Below are positions 52,741-64,000 of a stretch of DNA of 64,000 nucleotides, piece after piece (position 1 is the first letter of the stretch; the number at the start of each line of letters is the position of its first letter). The notes under the pieces were generated by a model. It had not been told where the DNA came from and did no database searches. It was given only the letters and a program-made list of their open reading frames with translations. Both the position numbers and the translations under genes were made by a program. Source of the stretch: Nocardiopsis alba DSM 43377 (GTDB lineage Bacteria; Actinomycetota; Actinomycetes; Streptosporangiales; Streptosporangiaceae); NCBI RefSeq assembly GCF_000341225.1, contig NZ_ANAC01000011.1, forward strand, positions 434,001-498,000. Reading direction: 5' to 3'.

Positions 52741-53277
52741 GCGCTTCCTTTCTTTCCCCCGGAAGGAGATGCTGAATTGCGGGTATTCGGGCATGACCAT
52801 GACGGCATCGGAATTTTCGGGGGATGTGGAAACGCGCGAAGGGCGGGTCGCGGTGTTTCGAAAAATTCGGATCCGGCGCGCTTCACGAGGGCGCGCCCCT
52901 GCCGGCGTTCCTTGACGAGATCCGCTTCGACCTCGGTCTTCGTCTCATCGGGTGGACGTCGCAGTCGACGTTCCACGGTTCCGACCGCGGTGAGAACACC
53001 GTTCTCGGATGCTGATCGGACCGTTGTACCGGGGGATTCTCCATATCGAACCCCGGGTCACGTGTTCCGCTTTATCTCCTTCGCTTCGCGGGTCGTCCCG
53101 CGTGCTCTCATTGTTCCTTTTCGGGCGTTCTGATGGCGGTCGGGGCGCCGAGGTTCTCCCGAATGAGGATTTTTTTCGAGCGTTCGCCCGGGTCCGTCGT
53201 TCCCGCGCAGGGATCGGGACATGAGAAAGGCCCTGCGAACAGGGCCTTCTCCGGTGTCGGGCAGAGGGGTCTCGGGC
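52741..53277. other. long intergenic region, no gene seen
   Basis: No supported coding region; short open frames here show no family resemblance. Composition is less GC-rich, with short T runs near 53168-53177. The right part carries the hairpin at 53227-53248 that probably ends the large operon downstream. It may hold the promoter of the duplicated lipoprotein gene. Confidence 0.45.
53227..53248 (-). terminator. operon-end hairpin (repeat copy C)
   Basis: AAGGCCCTG and CAGGGCCTT form a perfect 9-bp stem with a four-base CGAA loop. It lies 30 bases beyond the last gene of the ten-gene operon. It is related to the hairpins at 50230 and 51804, but its flank is diverged. Confidence 0.65.
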
Positions 53278-54132
53278 TCAGTGGGCCGCCACCGTGTTCG
53301 TCAGGAGGACGTCGTGGGTGCCGAACCTCATCTCGATCCGGTCACCGCCCTCCATCGAGAACCCACTGTGGAAGCTGCTGCGGTCGGCGCCGAGGTAGAC
53401 GTAGTGCACACGCCCCGGAGCGAGCAGCGCCTCGTACGCGAAGAGACCGGAGATCATCTCGGGCACGTCGTACAGGATGGCCTTGGTCCCCGTGGTGAAG
53501 GCGCCCTGCCACACGGGTCCGCCGTCCCGCTCGATGGTGACATGACCCGTGACGTGGCGGGGCGGGGCGTCCAGGAAGAGCCAGGGGGAGATCCCCGCGT
53601 CGCAGAGCTTGGCGTAGGAGAGGTGCCCGTTGTTCCGCTTGAAACGACCGATGTCGGTCAGGTCGTTGCCGAAGGTGTGGCCGACGTAGCGCGGGGTTCC
53701 GGAGGGGTCGGTGAGGTAGACGAGGACGACCTCCGCCTCCTCCGTCAAAGCGACGGCTCCGGACGGTACGCGCAGTGTCTCTCCGGGGACCTTCAGGACG
53801 TCGCCGAGGCCCTTGAAGAACCAGTTGGGCATGGTGTTCTCGGCGGCGTCGACCTTGGCGTGATGGGTCGCCATGAAACCACCGACCAGCGCGTCGCCGA
53901 CGGAGTCCGGCAGCAGTGGCGGACGGAGCCGTACGTCGGAGGCGGGGACGGGTGTCGCCTCACGCCCCCGGGTCAGGGCCTCGGTGAGGGCGGGGACGTC
54001 GCCGTTCGCCGCGAGCAGGGTGGACTGGAGATCGAGATCGCCGAGCGGGTACAGGTGGAGGGTGGTGGCCCCGGGGGAGTCGAGGCCGAAGTGGCGCTCG
54101 CCCCGGTGGACGCATTCGTACAGGGTGGGCAT
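53278..54132 (-). CDS. FAH-fold family enzyme (AraD1/GguC-like)
   Basis: A 284-residue protein. The segments VLVYLTDPSGTPRYVGHTFGNDLTDIGRFKRNNGHLSYAKLCDAGISPWLFL resemble the fumarylacetoacetate-hydrolase-like AraD1/GguC group, which acts on 2-keto-3-deoxy sugar acids or related ketoacids. The ATG overlaps the stop of the enolase-superfamily gene by one base (TGATG). It is the last gene of a ten-gene operon. The exact reaction is not predictable; hydrolysis, decarboxylation or dehydration of a keto acid is possible. Confidence 0.75.
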   Translation of the reverse strand: MPTLYECVHRGERHFGLDSPGATTLHLYPLGDLDLQSTLLAANGDVPALTEALTRGREATPVPASDVRLRPPLLPDSVGDALVGGFMATHHAKVDAAENTMPNWFFKGLGDVLKVPGETLRVPSGAVALTEEAEVVLVYLTDPSGTPRYVGHTFGNDLTDIGRFKRNNGHLSYAKLCDAGISPWLFLDAPPRHVTGHVTIERDGGPVWQGAFTTGTKAILYDVPEMISGLFAYEALLAPGRVHYVYLGADRSSFHSGFSMEGGDRIEMRFGTHDVLLTNTVAAH

Positions 54133-55349
54133 CAGGAGGTCACCTCGGAGGAAGCGGGGATCCAGCGGTCGTGGTACCAGGACCGGGAGGCCCAGCGTTC
54201 GGCGGACGCGTTCAGGCGCATACCGAAGCCGGGGCCGGGGGGCGGTGCCAGGGTGTTGGTCCGGCGGTCCACCAGGGGGCGCGGTGAGACGATCACGTCG
54301 GAGTCGGCGAAGAAGCGGTCGGACTGACCGGCCTCGACGGTGAGTGCGTCCGGGGCGCGGAAGGCCAGGGCCCGTCCGGCGTTGATCAGGGGCCCGACCT
54401 CCGCGACCTGTACACCGATCTGGAAGGCCAGGCCCGTGCCCCGGGCGTACGAGATCAGACGGGACGAGGCGGACAGGCCGCCGTTCTTGGCGACGCGCAC
54501 GTTCACGGCGTCGCACGCCTCGGTGTCCACGGCCGTCCGGGCGTCCGCGAGAGTGAGGACCGACTCGTCCAACATGACGCGGACGCCGGTCTCCCGACGT
54601 AGGACGCGAAGGTCCTTCCAGGAACGAGGGGGCAGCGGCTCCTCCAGGAGGTCCACCCCGACGTCGCGCAGCCGGAGGGCGTTCGGCACGGCGGTCTCGG
54701 AGGTCCAGCTCATGTTCGCGTCGACCATGACGGGGATCTCCGGGCCCAGCCGCTCCCGGATCGCCGTGATCGTACGGACGTCCTGTTCGAGGTCGGTGGA
54801 GGCCTTGACCTTGACGAAGTGGAAGGGCCCGCGCTCGTTCAGAAAGGTGTCGACGTCGGTTCCCAGATCGAGGACCTGGGAGATCGGAAGCATCGACGGT
54901 TCGGAGGACGTTCGGATCGGATCGGGCACGAGGTCGGTGGCGGGGAGGTCGAGGCGGCGGGCGATCAGGTCCAGCACGGCCGTCTCGATCAGACAGATCA
55001 GGTTGTTGTTCCGTCCGGGGGCACCGCCCGCGACGGCGGGACTCAGGACCTCCGCGAACACCTCCTCGAAGGGCGCCTCCCGTAGCCGTTCCAGGAGATC
55101 CTCCGGAGGAACGGACCTCAACCGGGCGAACAACCGGTCCATCGGGACCCGGAGCAGGGTCTCGCCCACGCTCGCGGTCGTCTCACCGGTGACGTAGGAA
55201 CGCGGCGCGCATTCTCCGACCCCGGTCGTGCCGTCGACGGTCAGACTCAGGACGAGGCCGTCGGCGGTGGAACGGCGGGCCGCCGGGTGGTCGAACCGGG
55301 CCAGCATCGGCGGCGCCGCCCGGTACAGCCGGGCCCCGGACTCAGACAT
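54132..55349 (-). CDS. enolase-superfamily enzyme, muconate-lactonizing/dipeptide-epimerase type
   Basis: A 405-residue protein with a full MLE-subgroup active site: K180-x-K182 (HFVKVKAS), metal ligands D210 (VDANMSW), E236 (EEPLPP) and D261 (DESVL), and K288 (NVRVAKNGG). This subgroup abstracts a proton next to a carboxylate and includes muconate cycloisomerases, o-succinylbenzoate synthases and dipeptide epimerases. Co-operon with an ATP-grasp ligase favours a peptide or amide substrate, but that is inference. It overlaps the hydrolase gene by eight bases and the FAH-like gene by one. Confidence 0.85.
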   Translation of the reverse strand: MSESGARLYRAAPPMLARFDHPAARRSTADGLVLSLTVDGTTGVGECAPRSYVTGETTASVGETLLRVPMDRLFARLRSVPPEDLLERLREAPFEEVFAEVLSPAVAGGAPGRNNNLICLIETAVLDLIARRLDLPATDLVPDPIRTSSEPSMLPISQVLDLGTDVDTFLNERGPFHFVKVKASTDLEQDVRTITAIRERLGPEIPVMVDANMSWTSETAVPNALRLRDVGVDLLEEPLPPRSWKDLRVLRRETGVRVMLDESVLTLADARTAVDTEACDAVNVRVAKNGGLSASSRLISYARGTGLAFQIGVQVAEVGPLINAGRALAFRAPDALTVEAGQSDRFFADSDVIVSPRPLVDRRTNTLAPPPGPGFGMRLNASAERWASRSWYHDRWIPASSEVTS

Positions 55350-56238
55350 CCCGGTCCAGGCCTTGGAGCAGGGTGTGGGTGGACGCCCAGTCGACGAGGT
55401 CGTCCCGGACGTCGGTGTAGAAGAGGTAGTGCCGATCGGTCGGGAAATGGATGATCGTGCCCCGTTCGGTGACCATCCGGTCGAACACGCGGCGGCTGTC
55501 GTCGAGGTCGAGGAAGGGGTCGGTCAGCCCGGACACGAACACGGTCGGTACACGGGGAGGTTCACTCCGGTCCGGGTGGTCCGGGTCGACGTAGAGGCGT
55601 TCCAGCTCCAGGAGGGTGCCGCGGGAGCGGCGGGTGATCGACCGGATCGCGAGATCGTCGTCGTCGATGAACCGCTGGTAACGGGGTACCGCGGTGAAGT
55701 CCTCCGACCGCAGACCGGCGTCCCACAGTTGGGTTCCGGTGTCGGCGGCCAGGGCCGCCCGTTCGCTCTCGCCGAGCAGCGAGTGCAGCCGTCCCAGCCA
55801 CGTCGAGCAGTAGACGGCGGCCTCGTAGCGGACGGTGAAGTCGGCGTGGTGCACCAGGGCGGCCAGGAAGGACCCTCCCAGGCAGTGCCCGAAGAGGGAC
55901 AGGGGGACGTCGTCGCCGATCGTCTCGCGAACGTGGGTCAGGGCGACGGTGTAGTCGGAGATGACGGTGGCCACGTCCGGGATCTCGTTGCGGGGGCCGT
56001 CGCTGACCCCGCTGCCGCGTCGGTCCAGGACGAAGAAGGCGATGTCGTTGTCCGCGAACCGGGGCCCCACCTCCCACAGCCACCCGGCGTGGCTCTGTAA
56101 CCCGTGGAAGTAGAAGACCGCGCCCTTGGGGCGGCGTCGGGGCCGCCACAGGTGGAGGGCCAGCCGGGCACCGTCGTCGGCCGACAGCGTGATGATCTCT
56201 CGACGTACGTTCTGAGGCGGCCTCTTGGTCTCGATCAC
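55342..56238 (-). CDS. alpha/beta hydrolase with Cys nucleophile
   Basis: A 298-residue serine-lipase-like fold of the monoacylglycerol-lipase group (oxyanion FHGLQSHAGW, DRRGSGVSDGPR). The nucleophile elbow reads LFGHCLGG: C119 sits where Ser is expected (codon TGC). The acid and His follow in SGLTDPFLDLD and FPTDRHYLF. Cys nucleophiles occur in dienelactone hydrolases and some thioester-processing enzymes. The GTG start overlaps the GH3 stop by four bases. It might release, transfer or cyclise an acyl product; that is inference. Confidence 0.82.
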   Translation of the reverse strand: MIETKRPPQNVRREIITLSADDGARLALHLWRPRRRPKGAVFYFHGLQSHAGWLWEVGPRFADNDIAFFVLDRRGSGVSDGPRNEIPDVATVISDYTVALTHVRETIGDDVPLSLFGHCLGGSFLAALVHHADFTVRYEAAVYCSTWLGRLHSLLGESERAALAADTGTQLWDAGLRSEDFTAVPRYQRFIDDDDLAIRSITRRSRGTLLELERLYVDPDHPDRSEPPRVPTVFVSGLTDPFLDLDDSRRVFDRMVTERGTIIHFPTDRHYLFYTDVRDDLVDWASTHTLLQGLDRDV

Positions 56239-57923
56239 CGGTGCGCTCCCGTCGATGCCGTGTCGCCGAGGATGTCGGCGGCGAAGTCGGTGTCCTGCTG
56301 GAAGGGCTTGTACTTGTACTGGGTGGTGTTGCCCCGCTGCCGGCGGGACTCGACGTAGGCGGCGATGCCGCCGTGCGGGACGGTGGTGAAGGTGAGCGGG
56401 GCGAGTCTGCCGCTGGTGCGCTTGGAGGCGTACTCGATGTTGATGTCCTGGAGCGCGCGGTCCACCCCCTCCGACAGGAGACGGTCCTGTTCCTCGCCGG
56501 GGTCGGAGATCTCGCCGACCATCACGTAGTACGGCGGCTCGCTCCAGCGCGGACCGCACAGGTAGAGCCCGACCGAACGTCCGGCCGCCGTCATGGCCCG
56601 TTCGATGGCCCTGGTGACCTGGGTCTCGGTGATCTTCTCCCCGGTGAAGGAGTGGAAGATCCCGTCCCGGTGGACGAAGTGCACCCACGGGGTTCCGTCC
56701 ACGAACCGGTCGACGTGGTAGACGTCGCCGGTCCACAGTCGGTACAGGCCGTTGGCCTGGGTCATGATCAGGTGATAGTCGCGACCCTCCTCCACCTCGT
56801 CGAACAGCAGGGTCTCGACCCGCTCGCCCGCGTCGAGCAGGGCGCCCAGGTCCGTCTCCGCCGGTACGAACTCGAAGAAGGCCTGGCCGACCGCCAGAGG
56901 CTGGCTGTCGAGGGAGTCGTCGACGGGGATGGTGGTCACCCCCTCGGTTCCGCAGCTCATGAACGGCATGGCGGACACCCCGGGGAGGACGGCCTCCAAC
57001 CGGGGCAGGTAGAGCTTGGCCGAGGACGACAACCAGGAACTGTAGGTGTTCAGCGACGGCCAGACGTCCTTGAGCGTGAACTCGCCCCGGTCCAGGACCG
57101 CCTGGAAGCGGCGGGCCCGCTCGGGGTCGGGGTCGGTGTGGGGCCGACCTTCGAGTGTGCCCTCGGCGAGGTCGCGGACCAGGTCCTCTCCGTGCTCGAC
57201 GATGAGGTCGCGTAACGAGATCAGGGTGCTCGGGTTGATGGCCGAGACGAAGCGCAGGTCCTCGCCGAGGAAGTGGCGGATCCGGTGGTACATCCGCCCG
57301 GAGTGCGAGGAGGGCGCGGCGGTGCCGAACCACGGCGCGGCGGACCACGGCGGGTTCCAGTCCCGGGCGTTGATCTTCGGATGGCGGTTGCTGATGGCCT
57401 GATAGGGGACGCCGGCCAGGAAGTCGTCGACGTCCTCGTAGACGGTCTGGGTGTCGAGCGCCGCGTACGGGTGGGCGAGGATCTCGGGGTGGTGTTCCAG
57501 GTAGACGCCCCACATGGCCCGCATCGCGGGGATACGGTACTTGAGCAGCCAGTGCAGGGTGTAGGGGACACGTTTGGGGACGCCCGTCGTCCCGCTCGTC
57601 TTCAACCAGCGCAGGACGGGGCTACAGGAGAGGGTTCCGCCCTTGGTCCGGATCTCACGGTCGATCTCTTCGGTGAAGTCGTCGTAGCGCATCACGGGAA
57701 GGGTGTCCCGGAAGGCGTCCGGGGCCGTCGTGAGGACGTCGTGACCGCGCTCCTTCCAATGGAGCGAGTCCGCGCACAGGGCGATGACGTCGTCGAGGAC
57801 CCGCCTCTGTGCCGTGGCCGGGTCCTTCAGGTCCACCAGGAAGGCCTCCCCGGCCCGCCGGCATTCCTCCGCGAAAGGGACACGGCGCGTGCGCCAGTGC
57901 TTCTGCCACTGCGTACTGCCCAC
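56235..57923 (-). CDS. GH3-family acyl-acid amido synthetase
   Basis: A 562-residue enzyme of the GH3 family, known from plants as the auxin/jasmonate amido synthetases that adenylate a carboxylic acid and couple it to an amine. Visible motifs: the P-loop-like LKTSGTTGVPKR (TSGTTG at 109-114), FMSCGTEGVTT (GTEG at 325-328) and NGLYRLWTGD (to residue 400), plus the hinge FTGEKITETQ. Bacterial members are uncommon and the acid and amine here are unknown. The gene overlaps the Cys-hydrolase gene and follows a monooxygenase pair. Confidence 0.88.
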   Translation of the reverse strand: MGSTQWQKHWRTRRVPFAEECRRAGEAFLVDLKDPATAQRRVLDDVIALCADSLHWKERGHDVLTTAPDAFRDTLPVMRYDDFTEEIDREIRTKGGTLSCSPVLRWLKTSGTTGVPKRVPYTLHWLLKYRIPAMRAMWGVYLEHHPEILAHPYAALDTQTVYEDVDDFLAGVPYQAISNRHPKINARDWNPPWSAAPWFGTAAPSSHSGRMYHRIRHFLGEDLRFVSAINPSTLISLRDLIVEHGEDLVRDLAEGTLEGRPHTDPDPERARRFQAVLDRGEFTLKDVWPSLNTYSSWLSSSAKLYLPRLEAVLPGVSAMPFMSCGTEGVTTIPVDDSLDSQPLAVGQAFFEFVPAETDLGALLDAGERVETLLFDEVEEGRDYHLIMTQANGLYRLWTGDVYHVDRFVDGTPWVHFVHRDGIFHSFTGEKITETQVTRAIERAMTAAGRSVGLYLCGPRWSEPPYYVMVGEISDPGEEQDRLLSEGVDRALQDINIEYASKRTSGRLAPLTFTTVPHGGIAAYVESRRQRGNTTQYKYKPFQQDTDFAADILGDTASTGAHR

Positions 57924-57939
57924 GATGTCAGCTTCCTTC

Positions 57940-58497
57940 TCAGCTCGGTCTTCCTGTACGCCGGTGGGTCATGGGCTCGGTCGATGTGGGTTTCTCGGGT
58001 GCCAGGACACGGAACCGGCTCCCGTGGAACACCAGGGGTTCGGCCGGTCCGGTCGGTGCGCCGTCGATGGTGGAGGCGATGATCAGTTCGTGGTCGCCCG
58101 CCGGGTGGACCACGGTGATCGCGCAGTCCAGCCAGCCCAGCCCGTCCGCCGGGACGGGGTGGCCGGCCGGGGTGGACGTCCAGCCGCGTCCGGCGAACCG
58201 GTCGGCGGCGCGGACGCCGAAACGTCGACAGAGGTCGACGTGCCCCTCTCCGAGGATGCTGACGGCGAAGTCTCCGGTCGCCCGGATCCTCGGCCAGGTG
58301 GTCGAGGTGCGGGCCGCGCAGAAGGCGACGAGCGGAGGGTCGAGTGAGACGGAGGTGAAGGAGTTGACGACCATGCCCGCGGGGCCGTCCTCCGTACGCG
58401 TGGTGATGAGGACGACCCCGGTGGCGAAACGGCCGAGGACGTCCCGGAACAGACGCCGGTCCAGGGGACGGTGCGCCGACGTGCTCTGTTGCGTCAT
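57940..58497 (-). CDS. flavin reductase (two-component monooxygenase partner)
   Basis: A 185-residue HpaC/RutF-type flavin reductase: FATGVVLITTRTEDGPAGMVVNSFTSVSLDPPLVAFCAARTSTTWPRIRATGDFAVSILGEGHVDLCRRFG. It supplies reduced FMN to an oxygenase; the LLM monooxygenase just upstream in the operon is the obvious partner. MTQQST was taken as the start because GGGGAG lies nine bases upstream; a GTG at 58521 is less likely. Confidence 0.9.
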   Translation of the reverse strand: MTQQSTSAHRPLDRRLFRDVLGRFATGVVLITTRTEDGPAGMVVNSFTSVSLDPPLVAFCAARTSTTWPRIRATGDFAVSILGEGHVDLCRRFGVRAADRFAGRGWTSTPAGHPVPADGLGWLDCAITVVHPAGDHELIIASTIDGAPTGPAEPLVFHGSRFRVLAPEKPTSTEPMTHRRTGRPS

Positions 58498-58563
58498 GCG
58501 GATGCTCTCCCCTTGTTCCACCGTTCGTTCCCGGACGCCCGGCCGTGACGGGTCATCGAGGTC

Positions 58564-59676
58564 TTACCGGGAGGAACGGGCGGCGATCGCCCGGTCCACG
58601 GCCTCCCGCGGCCGGTCCGCGGCACCGTTGATCCGAGGGGCGACGTGGCGCGCCAGGAGTTCGAGGCTGCGGTCGGTGTTCTCGTAGGTGGTCCAGTCCG
58701 CGGCGTAGACCAGGAGGGTGCCGAAGCCTCCGGTGGCCTCCTGCATCTTCCGGATGCCGGCGACCACGTCGTCCACGGAGCCGACGAGGGCTCCGCCGGC
58801 CTCGACCCGGGCCTCCAGGAGCTGCTCCCGAGGGACACCGGGGGGCTGGACGTCGCGTCCCGCCGCCTTGCCGAAGTATTCGAACAACCAGCGGTCGTAG
58901 CCCTCGCGGACCTCGTCGAACGCCTGTTTCCGGGTCTCGGCGACGTGCACCGGAAGGGCGATGCGCCATCGATCGCGGTCCAGGGTCCGGCCGAACTCCT
59001 CGGCGGCCTCCTCCGCGTACTTCCACTGTTGGGCCAGGCCGATGTGGTCCGGGGCGCCCGGGGTCATCAGCGCGAACGGGAGGGCGAAGGAGGTCATGCT
59101 CAGTCCGTACCGGCCGATGAGGCGGGGGCTGGTCACCGAGGTGCCGGAGGTGGCCAGCGCGACCTCGATCGGGTCGGGTCCGAACCGGGGCAGCTGAAGT
59201 CTGGCGTTCCGCAGCTCGTACCAGTCGGTCTTCTGGTCGACGACACCCTCGCCGTTGACCAGCTCGAGAAGGCTCGGCAGCGCCTCGTCCAGACGCCTGC
59301 GCTGGGTCGCCCCGTCGAGGCCGAACATGGGCGCGTCGAAGGGGACGCCCGGGCCCACGCCCAGGATGTAGCGGCCCTGGGAGAGGTGGTGCAGGTGTAC
59401 GGCACGACTGGCGACGTGGAAGGGGTGGTGGCCGGAGAGCGGGACCACGCCGTGCGCGAGCCTGATCTGCCGGGTGCGTTGACTCGCGGCGGCGATCAGG
59501 GTCTCGGGGGCGCCGACGAGACCCCAGCCCAGGGTGTGGTGTTCGCCGAACCAGGCCTCGTCGAAGTTCAGGCGGTCGGCGAGCTCCACGAGGTCGAGGT
59601 CGCGTTGGATCGCCAGATGCGGGTCCTGTCCCGTCTCGTGGACGGGGGACAGGAAGATACCTATACGACTGTGCAC
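58564..59676 (-). CDS. luciferase-like (LLM) flavin-dependent monooxygenase
   Basis: A 370-residue TIM-barrel flavin enzyme: ADRLNFDEAWFGEHHTLGWGLVGAPETLIAAASQRTRQIRLAHGVVPLSGHHPFHVASRAVHLHHLSQGRYILGVGPG. The C-terminus has the GSVDDVVAGIRKMQEATGGFGTLLV family pattern. It should use reduced FMN and O2, with the co-encoded flavin reductase, to oxidise a small molecule (hydroxylation, Baeyer-Villiger or N-oxidation cannot be told apart). It stands between the ATP-grasp and reductase genes. Confidence 0.9.
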   Translation of the reverse strand: MHSRIGIFLSPVHETGQDPHLAIQRDLDLVELADRLNFDEAWFGEHHTLGWGLVGAPETLIAAASQRTRQIRLAHGVVPLSGHHPFHVASRAVHLHHLSQGRYILGVGPGVPFDAPMFGLDGATQRRRLDEALPSLLELVNGEGVVDQKTDWYELRNARLQLPRFGPDPIEVALATSGTSVTSPRLIGRYGLSMTSFALPFALMTPGAPDHIGLAQQWKYAEEAAEEFGRTLDRDRWRIALPVHVAETRKQAFDEVREGYDRWLFEYFGKAAGRDVQPPGVPREQLLEARVEAGGALVGSVDDVVAGIRKMQEATGGFGTLLVYAADWTTYENTDRSLELLARHVAPRINGAADRPREAVDRAIAARSSR

Positions 59677-59727
59677 GGATGTGCCTCCGGTAGAGGAGAG
59701 GGGCGGGGCGATGGTGGGGCCCGAAGG

Positions 59728-60981
59728 TCAGGCCAGGCGGTAGAGCGACCCCTGGAGGGCGCGGGCCGCCTCATGATCGGCGGCGAGCCGATCTTCGTCG
59801 TCCGAGGTCAGATAGATGCGCATGGCGGCCGAGAGCAGGTCCGTGGTGGGGCGGATCCGATCGCCCGGCCCGTACTTCGGACTGGTCAGGAACACGCTGG
59901 GCAGTTCGTTGATCCGCGCGAGGACGTCCTGGTCCACGCTCTCCAGGACACCGTCGAGCGTGGTGGCCGGGTTGTAGCTGTAGGCGGACCGGAGCTTGCG
60001 GTAGGTCCGGCCGCCGTACTCCCGGACGAACCTCTCGGGGTGGGCGTAGGCCAACGCGGAGAGACCGGCCTGGTCGACGCCCAGGCACAGCTCTTGGAAG
60101 CCGGGGTGCACCAGACCGTTGAGACGGGCGGCGATCTCGACCAGGACCGGCCCCTGGTCGGTGACGATGACCTCGGCGTGGGCGGGGCCCCACCGTATGT
60201 TCAACGCCGCGAGGACCTCGTCCACGTAGGCGATGAGTTCCGGGACCGGCGCCTCGTCCGGGGCCAGCAGGATCTCCCGGTCGTAGACCCTCTGCCCGGA
60301 GGGCAACGGCCTCTTCTCGTACCGCCAGACCCCGGCGACGTGGCGATGGCCGTCGGCTCCGACGGTGTCGACGATGTACTCCGTCCCCTCCAGGTAGGAC
60401 TGGACCAGTACCTCGGTGTTGGTGGAGCCGAAGATGTCCCGGGAGCCCAGGTTCCGTTCGACGGCGGTCCGGACCTCCTCGGCGTCATCGCAGACGAACA
60501 CGCCGTCGGAGGCGGCCGAACCGACCGGCTTGACCACCACGGGCCAGGCGCCGCGGTCCCGCGCCCACTTGACGAGCAGCTCGGGATCGTCGCTCTTGAT
60601 CTGGTCGGCGCAGCGCACCCCGGCCCGGCGCAGCGTCTCGATCATCTCGTACTTGTCGCGACGGGCGGGGGAGAGCGCCGTGCCGTTGGACTTCACGTCG
60701 AGGGCTGCGCTGAGCCGGTCGGCCACCCGTACCGAGGACTCCTGACCCGGGACCACGGCGATCGGATCGTAGGGCCGCAGGAGTTCGACCAGTCGTTCCT
60801 CGTCGGAGCAGACGATGTTCTCCGCGTAGGCGGAGAGTTCGGGGGCGCGCATGGTCGGGATGAGTTCCGGGGTGCTCTGTACATGGACCACCCGGGCGCC
60901 GACGGAGGCGAAGGCCCCCGGGTAGAAGTTTCCTGCCGAGTAGCCGTCGACGACGACGGCGGTGGGCGCTTCGGGGTTCAA
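59728..60981 (-). CDS. ATP-grasp ligase
   Basis: A 417-residue ATP-grasp enzyme: DKYEMIETLRRAGV (K110), VVVKPVGSAASDGVFVC (K151), VQSYLEGTEYIVD and the metal-binding VLVEIAARLNGLVHP. This layout is like L-amino acid ligases (BacD/carnosine-synthase type), which join a carboxylate to an amine through an acyl-phosphate. The TTG start with GAGGAACGG is the only suitable one and overlaps the aminotransferase stop (TTGA). Substrates are unknown. Confidence 0.87.
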   Translation of the reverse strand: MNPEAPTAVVVDGYSAGNFYPGAFASVGARVVHVQSTPELIPTMRAPELSAYAENIVCSDEERLVELLRPYDPIAVVPGQESSVRVADRLSAALDVKSNGTALSPARRDKYEMIETLRRAGVRCADQIKSDDPELLVKWARDRGAWPVVVKPVGSAASDGVFVCDDAEEVRTAVERNLGSRDIFGSTNTEVLVQSYLEGTEYIVDTVGADGHRHVAGVWRYEKRPLPSGQRVYDREILLAPDEAPVPELIAYVDEVLAALNIRWGPAHAEVIVTDQGPVLVEIAARLNGLVHPGFQELCLGVDQAGLSALAYAHPERFVREYGGRTYRKLRSAYSYNPATTLDGVLESVDQDVLARINELPSVFLTSPKYGPGDRIRPTTDLLSAAMRIYLTSDDEDRLAADHEAARALQGSLYRLA

Positions 60982-62291
60982 GACCGTTCCTCAGGTGTGT
61001 CGTGCGGGGTTTTCTCGATGAAGCCGGCCAACCGCGCGATCCCTTCGCGGATCGCGTCGGGGGCGAGGTTGCTGAAGCCGATGCGGATCTCACGACGCCC
61101 GCCGTCGTCGTCGAGGTGGAACATGCTCATGGGGGCCCAGCTCACCCCGTGGTCACGGGCCGAACGTTCCATGGCCGCGAGGTCGGCGACGAAGGGGACC
61201 TTCAGGACCAGGAAGAACCCGCCGCTCGGGGTGTTCCAGGTGACCCCGTGGTCACCGCCGTCGGGGAAGTGCTCGGACAGGGCGTCCAGGGCCGCTCTCA
61301 GTCGCTCCTGGTAGATCGCGGCGAGTTCACGGGTGGCGGAGCGCAGGTCGTAGCCGTTCTCGACGAGGATCCCGCCGACCACGGCCTGAGAGAGGGTGGA
61401 GGAGCCGACCGTGAACATGGCCTTGGCCGGGGAGAGGGACTCGGCGAGGGTACGGGTGTTCCCCTCGGAATCGATGACCTCCTGGTCGGCGACCAGGTAG
61501 CCGAGGCGGGCCCCGGGGAAGGTCGACTTGGCGAAGGAGCCCAGGTAGACGACCCGACGATCGGTGTCCAGGGACTTCAGTGTGGGGAGCGCGGCGCCCT
61601 CGGCGGCGAAGAGCCCGTACGGGTTGTCCTCCAGGATCACGAGGTCCTCTTCGGCGGCCACCTCCAGCAGCCGGCGGCGGGCCGCGAGGGGGACCACCGT
61701 GCCGGACGGGTTGGAGAAGTCGGGCACCAGGTAGAGGGCCACGGCCCTCCGGCCCTCGGACCGCACCCGGCGGGCGGCCTCGGCCACCGCCTCGGGGTCG
61801 AGCCCGTCCGGGCCCTCGAGGATCCCGTGCACGGGGACGTCGAGCATGCGCGCCGCGCCTCGGATGCCCACGTAGGCGGGCGAGACCGACAGCAGGACGT
61901 CGTCGGCCGAGGTGATCAGGCCGCGCAGGGCGACCAGGGCCGCTTCCTGGAACCCGTGCGTGATCATGACGGCCTCGGGCGGAACGTCGATGTCCTCGTC
62001 CTGCTTCAGCATCAGGGCGACCTCGTCCCGGATGAGGCCGTTGACCGGCCCGTACTGGAAGAGGAGCCGGGTGACGCGTTCCTCGGGAAGGCCCTTGGCG
62101 CGTAGGTGCTCGATGTACCGCTCGACGTGGCGGGAGAGATCGGTGAGGTCGTGGTTCCCGTCGTAGGGGGCTCCCGACGAGAACGACAGGGAGTCGGGGA
62201 AACGCAGCGCGGTCTCGCTGAGGACGCGCATGGACCCCATCTCGGGGTCGACGACCCCGGCGTGCAGGGAATCATGATCGAACGAGAGCAT
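60978..62291 (-). CDS. PLP-dependent aminotransferase (class I/II, MocR/LysN-like)
   Basis: A 437-residue fold-type I enzyme. PLP contacts: N194 (DFSNPSG), D222 and Y225 (ILEDNPYG), K255 in GSFAKSTFPGARLGYLVAD. The similarity is to 2-aminoadipate-type aminotransferases and to MocR effector domains, but there is no DNA-binding domain. It begins one base after the YciI-like gene's stop, at ATG; GGAAGG lies upstream. It probably makes or breaks an amino acid used in the pathway. Confidence 0.9.
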   Translation of the reverse strand: MLSFDHDSLHAGVVDPEMGSMRVLSETALRFPDSLSFSSGAPYDGNHDLTDLSRHVERYIEHLRAKGLPEERVTRLLFQYGPVNGLIRDEVALMLKQDEDIDVPPEAVMITHGFQEAALVALRGLITSADDVLLSVSPAYVGIRGAARMLDVPVHGILEGPDGLDPEAVAEAARRVRSEGRRAVALYLVPDFSNPSGTVVPLAARRRLLEVAAEEDLVILEDNPYGLFAAEGAALPTLKSLDTDRRVVYLGSFAKSTFPGARLGYLVADQEVIDSEGNTRTLAESLSPAKAMFTVGSSTLSQAVVGGILVENGYDLRSATRELAAIYQERLRAALDALSEHFPDGGDHGVTWNTPSGGFFLVLKVPFVADLAAMERSARDHGVSWAPMSMFHLDDDGGRREIRIGFSNLAPDAIREGIARLAGFIEKTPHDTPEERS

Positions 62292-62292
62292 G

Positions 62293-62619
62293 TCAGCGAC
62301 CACCTTCCGAGGAGAGGGCCTCTTCGGCGCGGTCGGGTACGGAGATCCAGGCGCCCTTGCCCGGTGCCCATTCCCTGATCCGGGTTCCGGCGACGACCCC
62401 GCCTCGGACGTAGGGCTCCTCGTCCAGCACTTTCCGAAGTTCCTCGCGGTCCGCCACCTCGTAGAGCAGAAGCCCGGCGTTGTCACCGATGACCGGGCCG
62501 CCGAGCAGCAGGACGCCGCTCTCGGCGAGGCGATAGAGGTTCTCCGCGTGGGCCGGATGCAGGCCTTGGCGACCCTCCCGGTCCACGTTGTACTCGAATT
62601 CGACGACGAACTTCGCCAT
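62293..62619 (-). CDS. YciI-family protein
   Basis: A 108-residue small dimeric ferredoxin-like protein with the YciI pattern HAENLYRLAESGVLLLGGPVIGDNAGLLLYEVADREELRKVLDEEPYVRGG. YciI-like domains can act as small isomerases, dehalogenases or ligand-binding helpers. It is the second gene of the operon, 45 bases after the SDR gene. Confidence 0.85.
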   Translation of the reverse strand: MAKFVVEFEYNVDREGRQGLHPAHAENLYRLAESGVLLLGGPVIGDNAGLLLYEVADREELRKVLDEEPYVRGGVVAGTRIREWAPGKGAWISVPDRAEEALSSEGGR

Positions 62620-62664
62620 ACCGGCTCCTTGTGCGATGTTTCCTACCGAGGGCGGGGAAGGCCC

Positions 62665-63411
62665 TCACATGTAAAGTCCGCCGTTGATGTCGATGACGGA
62701 TCCGGTCGAGTAGCCGGCGCTCTCGGAGCACAGGTGCAGTACGCTCCCGGCGGCCTCGGCGACCGTGCCGTACCGGCCCATGGGGAGTCGGGCCAGGACG
62801 GCCTTCCGCTCCGCCTCGTCGCGACGCTCGAGGGCGCCCGCCACACGCTCGGTGGCGATCGGCCCGTGGGCCACCACGTTCACGACCACACCAGTGCCGG
62901 CGAGTTCATGCCCCATCTGCTTGGTCATGCCGATGACGGCGGCCTTCGAGGCGACGTAGGCGGCGTTGTTGAAACGGCTGAACGTACGTCCGCCCGTCGA
63001 CGCGAAGTTGACGATGCGGCCGTAACCGTCCCGCACCATGCGTGGAGCGACCACCTTGATCGCGATCCACGTACCGACCACGTTCTCCAGGTGGGTCTGC
63101 TCGAAGTGGTGGTGTTCCAGGTCGGCGTAGCCGATGATCCGGGTGTCGCCGCCGACCCCGTTGACGAGGATCGAGGGGGCGTGGCGTTCGGTGATCTCCG
63201 TCAGCAGTCGCTCCGCGGCGGGGACATCGGTGACGTCGCCGACGATCGCTTCGACCTTCGTCCTCGGCGACAGCTCCTCGGCCAGACGGGTGACGGCCTC
63301 CTCGTCCTTGTCGAAGAGGACGAGGGGGTGTCCCCCGGCGGCGAGCTCCCGGGCGACCTCGGAGAGGATTCCACCTGCGGCGCCGATCATGAGGGCGGTA
63401 CGTGCGGTCAC
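62665..63411 (-). CDS. SDR-family oxidoreductase
   Basis: A 248-residue short-chain dehydrogenase. The catalytic tetrad is present: N110, S138 (VNFASTGG), Y152 and K156 (YVASK). The cofactor motif reads IGAAGGILSEV instead of TGxxxGIG: Leu replaces the last Gly, so cofactor binding may be altered. GTG start, with GGTGAAAG upstream. It is the first gene of the ten-gene operon; a long upstream region holds a Crp-type palindrome. Confidence 0.88.
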   Translation of the reverse strand: MTARTALMIGAAGGILSEVARELAAGGHPLVLFDKDEEAVTRLAEELSPRTKVEAIVGDVTDVPAAERLLTEITERHAPSILVNGVGGDTRIIGYADLEHHHFEQTHLENVVGTWIAIKVVAPRMVRDGYGRIVNFASTGGRTFSRFNNAAYVASKAAVIGMTKQMGHELAGTGVVVNVVAHGPIATERVAGALERRDEAERKAVLARLPMGRYGTVAEAAGSVLHLCSESAGYSTGSVIDINGGLYM

Positions 63412-64000
63412 TTACTTTCACCTGGCCTGTGTGGGATATGGCGTGCTGGAAAGTCGTTCTGCCGGGTCGCCCGTACCGGTGGATCGGGGGCTCGCACCAG
63501 AGATGACGGCTCGATCGGCCGTGGGCGGAGAAGGTGGTACCGGATTCGCCTCGGAATCGTCGGTGATGCAATCCGGTGCTGAATTTTCCCGGTCTTTTCG
63601 AGGGCTTATTAATGCGCCGGAGAAAAGGGCTCTTGGTGGCCGTGGGATACGCAATCGATCGTGCAACAGCCTAAAGTCGCCGTCAATGTGACCTGAATCA
63701 CATTGCTACTTCTCTAGGGAAGTGGGTACCTTGATGGCCGCGCATATCGGAAATGCGACTTATGTTTTTTGAATCTTTGCAGTTCAGGCGCCATGATCAC
63801 GATCTGGGGAGTGCGACTCCGCGAAAATCGACCGCGGAGGAATTTCCTTTCCACTGCACTGATGTCCGGTTCGGGTCGTTCGTAGGCCCTCTTGTGGCTG
63901 GATTCGGCCATTGTTCTTCACATACGTGGCCGGTATCGGCCATTGATCACGAGAAACGGGAATGGGTGTCCGTCCGCACCATCGGTGGGCGAGGTACCTG
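63412..64000. other. upstream region of the biosynthetic operon, no gene seen
   Basis: No gene is supported; a 65-codon minus-strand frame at 63714-63911 has no family resemblance. The region is noticeably less GC-rich than the genes, as for a regulated promoter. It contains the palindrome at 63684-63705. The window ends before the next gene. Confidence 0.5.
63684..63705. promoter_or_regulatory. perfect Crp/Fnr-type palindrome
   Basis: CAATGTGA-CCTGAA-TCACATTG: 8-bp perfect arms. The core TGTGA-N6-TCACA is the Crp consensus, also used by actinobacterial Crp/GlxR. It lies about 275 bases upstream of the SDR start, far for a direct site, so a longer leader or an unseen gene outside the window are alternatives. 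Confidence 0.6.

Follow-up and report, generated by a model that had tools for sequence, protein, structure and literature searches.

NRPS-independent dipeptide clusters of the bacilysin type (bac) and the dapdiamide type (dda) carry an ATP-grasp L-amino acid ligase, an aminotransferase, an SDR and an MFS gene. GH3 proteins are best known from plant hormone biology, and the plant and bacterial GH3 synthetases JAR1, GH3.12 and OlsH are built from three GH3 domains with a nucleotide-binding motif. In the part of the source available, OlsH is the GH3 acyl-acid amido synthetase of planctomycetes (PMC12493201), and RubP3, a 567-aa protein of the rub (rubiginone) cluster of Streptomyces sp. CB02414, is listed as a "GH3 auxin-responsive promoter" (PMC8487521). 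The locus described here lies in a 64,000-nucleotide stretch of Nocardiopsis alba DSM 43377 (the window) and has the ligase, aminotransferase, SDR and MFS genes of the bac and dda clusters, the MFS gene standing without an NRPS module or carrier protein and presumably serving export. Unlike them it has no recognised prephenate decarboxylase or isomerase, and it adds a GH3 protein, a Cys-hydrolase, an MLE-type enolase, an FAH-fold enzyme, a luciferase-like (LLM) monooxygenase with a flavin reductase, and a putative B12 mutase. Its GH3 protein has the domains and motif of JAR1, GH3.12 and OlsH but sits in a metabolite-type cluster. The rub cluster likewise lists a GH3 protein and an alpha/beta hydrolase, but it is an angucycline cluster for which the available part of the source gives no ATP-grasp, enolase or LLM gene (PMC8487521). 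The features assigned in the window are as follows.

62665..63411, minus: SDR oxidoreductase, first gene (GTG start, alternative ATG at 63390; PF13561, 140 bits)
62293..62619, minus: YciI-like protein (PF03795, 45 bits)
60978..62291, minus: PLP fold-type I aminotransferase, MocR/aminoadipate-aminotransferase/MppQ-like (aminotransferase I/II and other profiles; conserved residues)
59728..60981, minus: ATP-grasp L-amino acid ligase (NF005543 over cut-off; solved chain 30vh)
58564..59676, minus: luciferase-like (LLM) monooxygenase (Bac_luciferase; solved-structure match)
57940..58497, minus: flavin reductase (Flavin_Reduct; HsaB/FerA-like, under their cut-offs)
56235..57923, minus: predicted GH3 acyl-acid amido synthetase (N, M and C domains)
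55342..56238, minus: alpha/beta hydrolase, monoglyceride-lipase fold (Hydrolase_4; Cys119, Asp240, His270)
54132..55349, minus: enolase-superfamily enzyme, muconate-lactonizing (MLE) subgroup (MR_MLE_C and invariant residues)
53278..54132, minus: FAH-fold enzyme, GguC/AraD1-like (model match; invariant acidic residues)
53226..53251, no strand: terminator-like hairpin and left member of an exact direct repeat of 26 bp (fold and repeat search)
63412..64000, no strand: start of the region between the operon and the divergent MFS gene (MFS ORF starts at contig C11 498038)

A preliminary description had read the ten minus-strand ORFs at 53278-63411 as a closely packed operon, and this proved sound: the ORFs stand where it had placed them, and the junctions range from -8 to +66 bases (SDR-YciI +45, YciI-aminotransferase +1, aminotransferase-ATP-grasp -4, ATP-grasp-LLM +51, LLM-flavin reductase +66, flavin reductase-GH3 +16, GH3-hydrolase -4, hydrolase-enolase -8, enolase-FAH -1). 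The -8 overlap vanishes with an alternative enolase start, and the 4 bases common to the GH3 and hydrolase genes are the setting of a speculative acyl hand-over considered further below. The hairpin proposed as the operon's end (53227-53248) folds better than its shuffles (z = -3.5; 2 of 200 equally good), but it is missing from the results of the consensus terminator scan. The gene families named at that time are also correct by profile matches and, for the FAH-fold gene, by its model. The ten genes are a true set and yet not the whole of it, because the cluster runs beyond the window end to 15 genes, the operon being joined by five divergent genes that encode an MFS protein, a GntB-like hydroxylase, methylaspartate-mutase-like subunits S and E and a second ATP-grasp ligase. 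The MFS gene starts 38 bases past the window end and matches MFS_1 and MFS_3. We presume that the region between it and the operon is a two-way promoter region; the consensus promoter scan found no promoter in its start (63412..64000), and an Rfam scan of 52800-64000 matched no family, cobalamin riboswitch included.

The operon consists of two modules, a core of GH3, Cys-hydrolase, MLE-type enolase and FAH genes and a dipeptide-ligase module (module 2) that holds the SDR, YciI, aminotransferase, ATP-grasp and LLM genes. By its domains and motif the GH3 protein is assigned as a GH3 acyl-acid amido synthetase: the N, M and C Pfam domains score 107.6, 57.9 and 43.9 bits against a cut-off of 23.6 each, and T109SGTTGxPK117 and E429-K430 are invariant in 29 aligned rows. 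We take T109-S-G-T-T-G114/K117 to be the nucleotide-binding motif and the K430 region to hold the Lys of the C-terminal part. In these conservation counts, as in the trees, rows shorter than 75% of the query were removed, so that L022 and L030 are out of the GH3 rows. The hydrolase has Cys119, Asp240 and His270 in the positions where a Ser triad is usual, and the earlier label of Cys-hydrolase is borne out by its GHCLGG motif, with Cys in 28 of 29 rows. It has the alpha/beta-hydrolase fold in common with the GrgF-type hydrolase of PDB 6lzh, at 18% identity and rank 47 among its structure matches; GrgF is reportedly a fungal enzyme of polyketide fusion with a Cys nucleophile. The enolase resembles MLE and chloromuconate cycloisomerase and carries K180-x-K182, D210, E236, D261 and K288 in 28 of 28 rows, thus the K-x-K, the three metal ligands and the second Lys base that we take to define the MLE subgroup. 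Its assignment as a methylaspartate ammonia-lyase was rejected (PF07476, 23 against a cut-off of 27). The FAH-fold gene stays under its sequence cut-offs (PF01557, 23.8 against 23.9; NF040903, 126.6 against 340), whereas the model of its product matches FAH-fold enzymes, best of all 2-keto-3-deoxy-D-arabinonate dehydratase, and E132-x-E134 and D157 are invariant in 26 rows.

In module 2, the ATP-grasp protein scores 354 bits with NF005543 (cut-off 302), and its nearest solved chain is 30vh, an L-amino acid ligase (211 bits). The aminotransferase keeps Lys258 and Arg406 in all 13 rows (numbered after window:60981-62300), and the best solved match of the LLM monooxygenase is 3,6-diketocamphane 1,6-monooxygenase, to which the flavin reductase presumably supplies FMNH2. 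Among the divergent genes, the mutase matches PF06368 (367 against 26.6), and the second ATP-grasp ligase carries a LAL_C2 domain, making three ATP-dependent ligases in the cluster (GH3 and two ATP-grasp). No condensation, adenylation or PP-binding domain was found at E <=0.001 in the 15 proteins of the cluster. All of the NCBIfam equivalogs considered stayed under their cut-offs, namely dapdiamide synthase DdaF (NF041595, 211.6 against 840), MppQ of enduracididine (139.1 against 540), GntC and GntB of guanitoxin (101.4 against 415 and, for the hydroxylase, 51.9 against 380), OlsH (44 against 620) and methylaspartate mutase S and E (TIGR01503, 336 against 390; PRK02261, 81.6 against 110).

The GH3 gene is the single one of its genome; it was absent from all 36 congeners searched, and among 60 relatives it was present just in the genome of the window itself. 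In a sample of 392 Streptomyces genomes, GH3 occurred in 11 and LLM in 9 (counted at E up to 1e-150, with G060, the genome around which the sample was drawn, among the nine), and all nine LLM genomes also had GH3, on the same contig 0.1-12.2 kb away in seven and on different contigs in two. The genes thus travel together, though of the 14 genomes with a similar ATP-grasp gene five gave neither GH3 nor LLM at the cut-offs applied, which speaks against the single-cluster reading. The scattering in related genomes that would have spoken against the earlier proposal was not seen in what was searched. Nine of the ten operon genes, all except the flavin reductase, recur in 10 of 30 loci; gene calls there come from our own codon-score scripts, and one genome search took in 26 genomes, standing for 27 of these 30 loci, without L011, L013, L021 and L032. 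We sorted the loci by gene content under our own labels A, B and C, leaving L025 and L030 unassigned. Architecture A, that of the window, is found in nine other loci of scattered soil actinobacteria, all nine with a second ATP-grasp gene nearby, and its GH3s (the window and eight of the nine) form one clade in the GH3 tree (99/98). Related clusters also carry PKS, MFS and AfsA/TetR (gamma-butyrolactone-type regulator) genes.

The cluster is flanked by two copies of the 26-bp hairpin, the right one lying beyond the window (contig C11 503833-503858), 16.6 kb from the left, and the hairpin's 22-base core has only these two sites in the 5.82-Mb genome at <=3 mismatches. The repeat seems particular to the present insertion, since a search at the borders of seven other architecture-A clusters, out of nine, gave no direct repeat longer than 13 bp. 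A flanking M20 gene is present in 40 of 40 genus genomes, our own included. The flanks come within 16 bases of each other in congener G019, where, however, the left one is inverted, so that this is not a clean empty site; G013 and G035 have other DNA at the insertion spot, G003 and G015 matched in the right flank alone, and no clean empty site was seen among the congeners compared. Plasmid tblastn with GH3 gave six records, all below 36% identity.

On the basis of gene content, conserved catalytic residues, co-occurrence and repeat-marked borders, we consider it likely that this is a 15-gene specialised-metabolite cluster, probably moved in as a unit, whose product is a small modified peptide or amide made without carrier protein or NRPS and exported. 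A biosynthetic role is supported by the co-occurring genes, the MFS protein, the three ATP-dependent ligases and the PKS and gamma-butyrolactone-type regulators of kin clusters. As we infer its substrates, order of steps, export and product, the B12 mutase pair would convert glutamate to 3-methylaspartate or a close relative, and the GntB-like enzyme would hydroxylate methylaspartate or another amino acid. SDR and aminotransferase may turn a hydroxy or keto acid into a non-proteinogenic amino acid, and LLM with its reductase may oxygenate an intermediate with FMNH2. GH3 would then adenylate a carboxylic acid and couple it with an amino acid; the enolisable intermediate so formed could be isomerised, transferred or cleaved, and dehydrated by the enolase, the Cys-hydrolase and the FAH-fold enzyme; one or both ATP-grasp ligases would add amino acids in the bacilysin dipeptide manner, and the MFS protein would export the product. 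No characterised pathway matched in what was searched, and the combination of GH3, ATP-grasp, enolase and LLM had no description among the open-access papers listed (subscription papers lay mostly outside that scope), so that calling the metabolite new rests on the combination not being found in the searches made. The Pbo cluster was set aside as a match, as it has an ATP-grasp ligase but also NRPS/PKS parts, and the main text, in the part available, makes no mention of GH3 (PMC8473136).

The proposal of a new amide- or peptide-like pathway thus stands as biosynthesis, but not as one indivisible pathway, and since other genomes have the two halves apart, these may work on different molecules. 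The core occurs in two phyla, and in the 12 architecture-B loci, Pseudomonas and Burkholderia included, it is without module 2 within the stretches examined. These loci (L006, L007, L010, L012, L015, L017-L019, L021, L026, L028 and L031) keep GH3, hydrolase, enolase and FAH in the same order (L021 ends before FAH), but 11 of the 12 place a TPP enzyme between enolase and FAH, and AKR, PKS, condensation-like, CHMI or SDR genes replace module 2. Furanomycin, a polyketide-derived product of one Streptomyces and one Pseudomonas, was dropped as a candidate architecture-B product, the available part of the source naming no biosynthetic gene cluster for it (PMC3662646). The modules are oppositely oriented in L008 and separated by at least two genes in L009, L016, L024 and L027, as if two pathways lay side by side, the core making one metabolite and the SDR-YciI-aminotransferase-ATP-grasp-LLM module another, or one of them serving the other for supply or protection, with co-transcription reflecting no more than shared regulation. 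This we regard as rather unlikely: LLM never occurred without GH3 in the 392-genome sample, and the architecture-A and -C loci group in the GH3 tree (85/89, a branch not starred) as if the modules had been joined once and kept, module 2 being seen in four of seven C loci while the other three end before it (L011, L013 and L032 were assigned to C from their left side only).

Within the biosynthetic reading, a carrier-protein-free line is a speculative version to which we give a small chance. The GH3 adenylate might pass to a thioester on Cys119, the hydrolase acting as an acyl- or C-C-bond-forming transferase, after which the enolase might isomerise or epimerise the N-acyl product and the ATP-grasp ligases finish the peptide. 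If this version is true, the core would be an exchangeable warhead module common to Streptomyces, Pseudomonas and Burkholderia that combines with PKS, mutase or dipeptide-ligase modules.

Members of the enolase, FAH, YciI and hydrolase families often serve catabolism, and the dehydratase match of the FAH model, the cycloisomerase likeness of the enolase, the weak muconolactone-isomerase likeness of the YciI-like protein (PF02426, 21.7 against a cut-off of 26.7) and a CHMI-like isomerase in architecture-B clusters could point to uptake and breakdown of an amide, a hydroxy or sugar acid, in which the enolase, the AraD1-like FAH enzyme, the SDR and the Cys-hydrolase would work in the dienelactone or 2-keto-3-deoxy-acid style. 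The cluster's three ATP-dependent amide ligases, its MFS transporter (also MFS_3), a scan of the 15 proteins in which neither a binding-protein importer nor a ring-cleavage dioxygenase was recognised, sporadic presence, and the PKS and regulator genes of related clusters make such degradation very unlikely. Conjugation of an auxin- or jasmonate-like acid to amino acids as in plants, with the neighbours recycling, would suit a single GH3 whose solved relatives are plant GH3s and loci that presumably come in part from plant-associated species, but is hardly credible given the low plant similarity (best 84.6 bits), the lack of other recognised hormone genes among the 15 proteins and the coupling to enolase and FAH genes, of which we know no case in hormone conjugation.

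The specialised-metabolite cluster that we favour belongs to a gene-cluster family in which GH3 stands together with ATP-grasp dipeptide ligases and a conserved Cys-nucleophile hydrolase. Its repeat-marked borders delimit a 16.6-kb unit ready to be expressed, which puts the question within reach of a direct test. NRPS-independent clusters like this one may escape mining tools keyed to NRPS/PKS signatures.

All ten minus-strand ORFs named in the preliminary description are present, and the families that it assigned to them agree with profile scans. The following features enter the analysis:

Window 53278-63411, minus strand: operon encoding an SDR, a YciI-like protein, an aminotransferase, an ATP-grasp ligase, a luciferase-like monooxygenase (LLM), a flavin reductase, a GH3 enzyme, a Cys-hydrolase, an enolase-superfamily enzyme and an FAH-fold enzyme
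Window 53226-53251: 26-bp terminator-like hairpin, first copy
C11 503833-503858 (same contig, past the window end): 26-bp hairpin, second copy

The junctions are as closely packed as described, with four overlaps (-4, -4, -8 and -1), one spacing of +1 and the remaining four of 16-66 bases, and the terminal hairpin folds better than shuffled sequence (z -3.5). The operon itself stands, and the unit is larger: divergent genes past the window end belong to it as well. On C11 these encode an MFS protein, a 404-aa protein that weakly resembles the arginine hydroxylase GntB and matches no Pfam family, the S and E subunits of a methylaspartate-mutase-like enzyme, and a second ATP-grasp protein whose C-terminal domain is of the L-amino acid ligase type; an M20 peptidase gene comes next.

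This M20 gene is shared by all 40 genomes examined in the genus, the organism's own included, whereas a search of 59 other relatives, including 36 from the same genus, turned up no GH3 gene. The 15-gene set is flanked by an exact direct repeat of the 26-bp hairpin; a search for the hairpin's 22-base core, allowing up to 3 mismatches, finds no further site in 5,820,411 bases. In the congener G019 both flanks lie 16 bases apart, one of them inverted, and GC content is 68.4% within the cluster versus about 70% outside. Taken together, these observations indicate that the cluster was probably acquired as a single unit; the repeat is a possible integration or recombination site. No such border repeat was seen at seven other clusters. 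The spot beside the M20 gene is a variable site in the genus; at the same spot in two congeners (L072 in G035 and L073 in G013) lies other DNA of about 12-18 kb.

We scanned genome contigs with GH3 and sorted the 30 loci found into three architectures. GH3 and the hydrolase are present in 30, the enolase in 29, FAH in 25, SDR, YciI and the aminotransferase in 13 each, ATP-grasp in 12, LLM in 11 and the flavin reductase in 7, counts that depend on identity limits and are in several cases lowered by contig or locus ends. In architecture A (nine loci and the window), a module of SDR, YciI, aminotransferase, ATP-grasp and LLM, with the flavin reductase in 7/9, adjoins the core of GH3, hydrolase, enolase and FAH. 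MFS and second ATP-grasp genes are nearby in all nine, and hydroxylase (GntB-like) and mutase genes in eight. Among the exceptions, L014 has its mutase genes on a separate contig and L008 has the module reversed; the stretch examined from L005 shows no SDR, YciI, enolase or FAH gene. Twelve loci, among them Pseudomonas L028 and Burkholderia L026, form architecture B. They have the core, and in 11/12 a TPP enzyme follows the enolase; many add an AKR, a condensation-like protein, MFS, a CHMI-like isomerase and an SDR, and seven have a divergent PKS-type protein, which in L018, the one scanned, is KS-AT-DH-ACP. Architecture C (seven loci) runs from the core through a condensation-like protein and MFS to the module, visible in the four loci that reach that far; LLM and flavin reductase are in all four clusters whose right side was retrieved. 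Most C loci also have AfsA-like, TetR, amidase and epimerase genes. L067, from a genome (G456) unmatched by GH3 or LLM, resembles C in its AfsA-, TetR-, epimerase-, MFS- and ATP-grasp-like genes.

A tree of 29 GH3 rows, from which L022 and L030 were excluded, shows A as one clade (99/98) that groups with C at modest support (85/89), with B outside in several pieces and the proteobacterial rows on long branches; the hydrolase tree recovers C (99/96) and, weakly, A (74/27). One simple reading is that the core is old, that the module was added to it a single time, ahead of the divergence of A from C, and that A then gained the mutase module. As an independent precursor module, the pair of mutase and hydroxylase also sits in other clusters, where its neighbours are FAD-enzyme, O-methyltransferase, PLP-decarboxylase or LLM genes; the members scanned in L036-L041 include an SAM synthetase as well as these. 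The genome of L005 encodes a PKS-type protein beside a second hydroxylase copy on another contig (L042, contig C555 of G062).

Because these loci were chosen by GH3, a less biased sample was drawn. Among 392 Streptomyces genomes LLM occurs in 9, GH3 in 11 and ATP-grasp in 14. The co-occurrence that the preliminary description proposed to look for is borne out for GH3 and LLM, with all nine LLM genomes carrying GH3 (Fisher p about 1e-16, uncorrected for kinship and with G060, the centre of the draw, an already known carrier) and both genes on one contig in 7/9, 0.1-12.2 kb apart. Five of the ATP-grasp carriers lack GH3 and LLM at the thresholds used. Their neighbourhoods hold other ATP-grasp genes and clusters, and the ligase family is thus not specific to this gene set. 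Clusters L068, L069 and L070 encode ATP-grasp-related proteins, one of them 863-873 aa long, together with a PKS-like protein and a 61-78-aa protein, which we guess may be a LysW-like amino-group carrier.

Both its family score and its nearest solved structure mark the operon ATP-grasp protein as an L-amino acid ligase, and its SDR, aminotransferase and MFS neighbours recall the bacilysin plan, in the gene roles generally ascribed to it. GH3 enzymes couple an acyl acid with an amino acid. The operon enolase retains the residues of the muconate-lactonizing subgroup, whose members are cycloisomerases, N-acyl amino acid racemases or dipeptide epimerases; the latter two would pair naturally with amide-forming enzymes. 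The FAH model (pLDDT 88) best matches 2-keto-3-deoxy-D-arabinonate dehydratase, and the hydrolase model (pLDDT 80.8) matches monoglyceride lipases. The hydrolase has the motif GHCLGG, with Cys119, Asp240 and His270; Asp and His are kept in 29/29 aligned rows and Cys in 28/29, the sole exception being the Gly of L005, which together with the enolase and FAH genes not found in the stretch examined there would fit a decaying copy. Active-site residues expected in GH3, enolase, aminotransferase and FAH, which we take to be catalytic, are invariant across aligned rows. Overall, the cluster most likely makes and exports a small modified peptide or amide, for which we infer the substrates and step order.

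No description of this gene combination was found among the open-access papers that our searches listed. A GH3 protein is reported for the rub cluster (PMC8487521), so that a Streptomyces metabolite cluster with GH3 has a precedent. We rate the cluster as belonging with the NRPS-independent peptide clusters, as a new variation on them.
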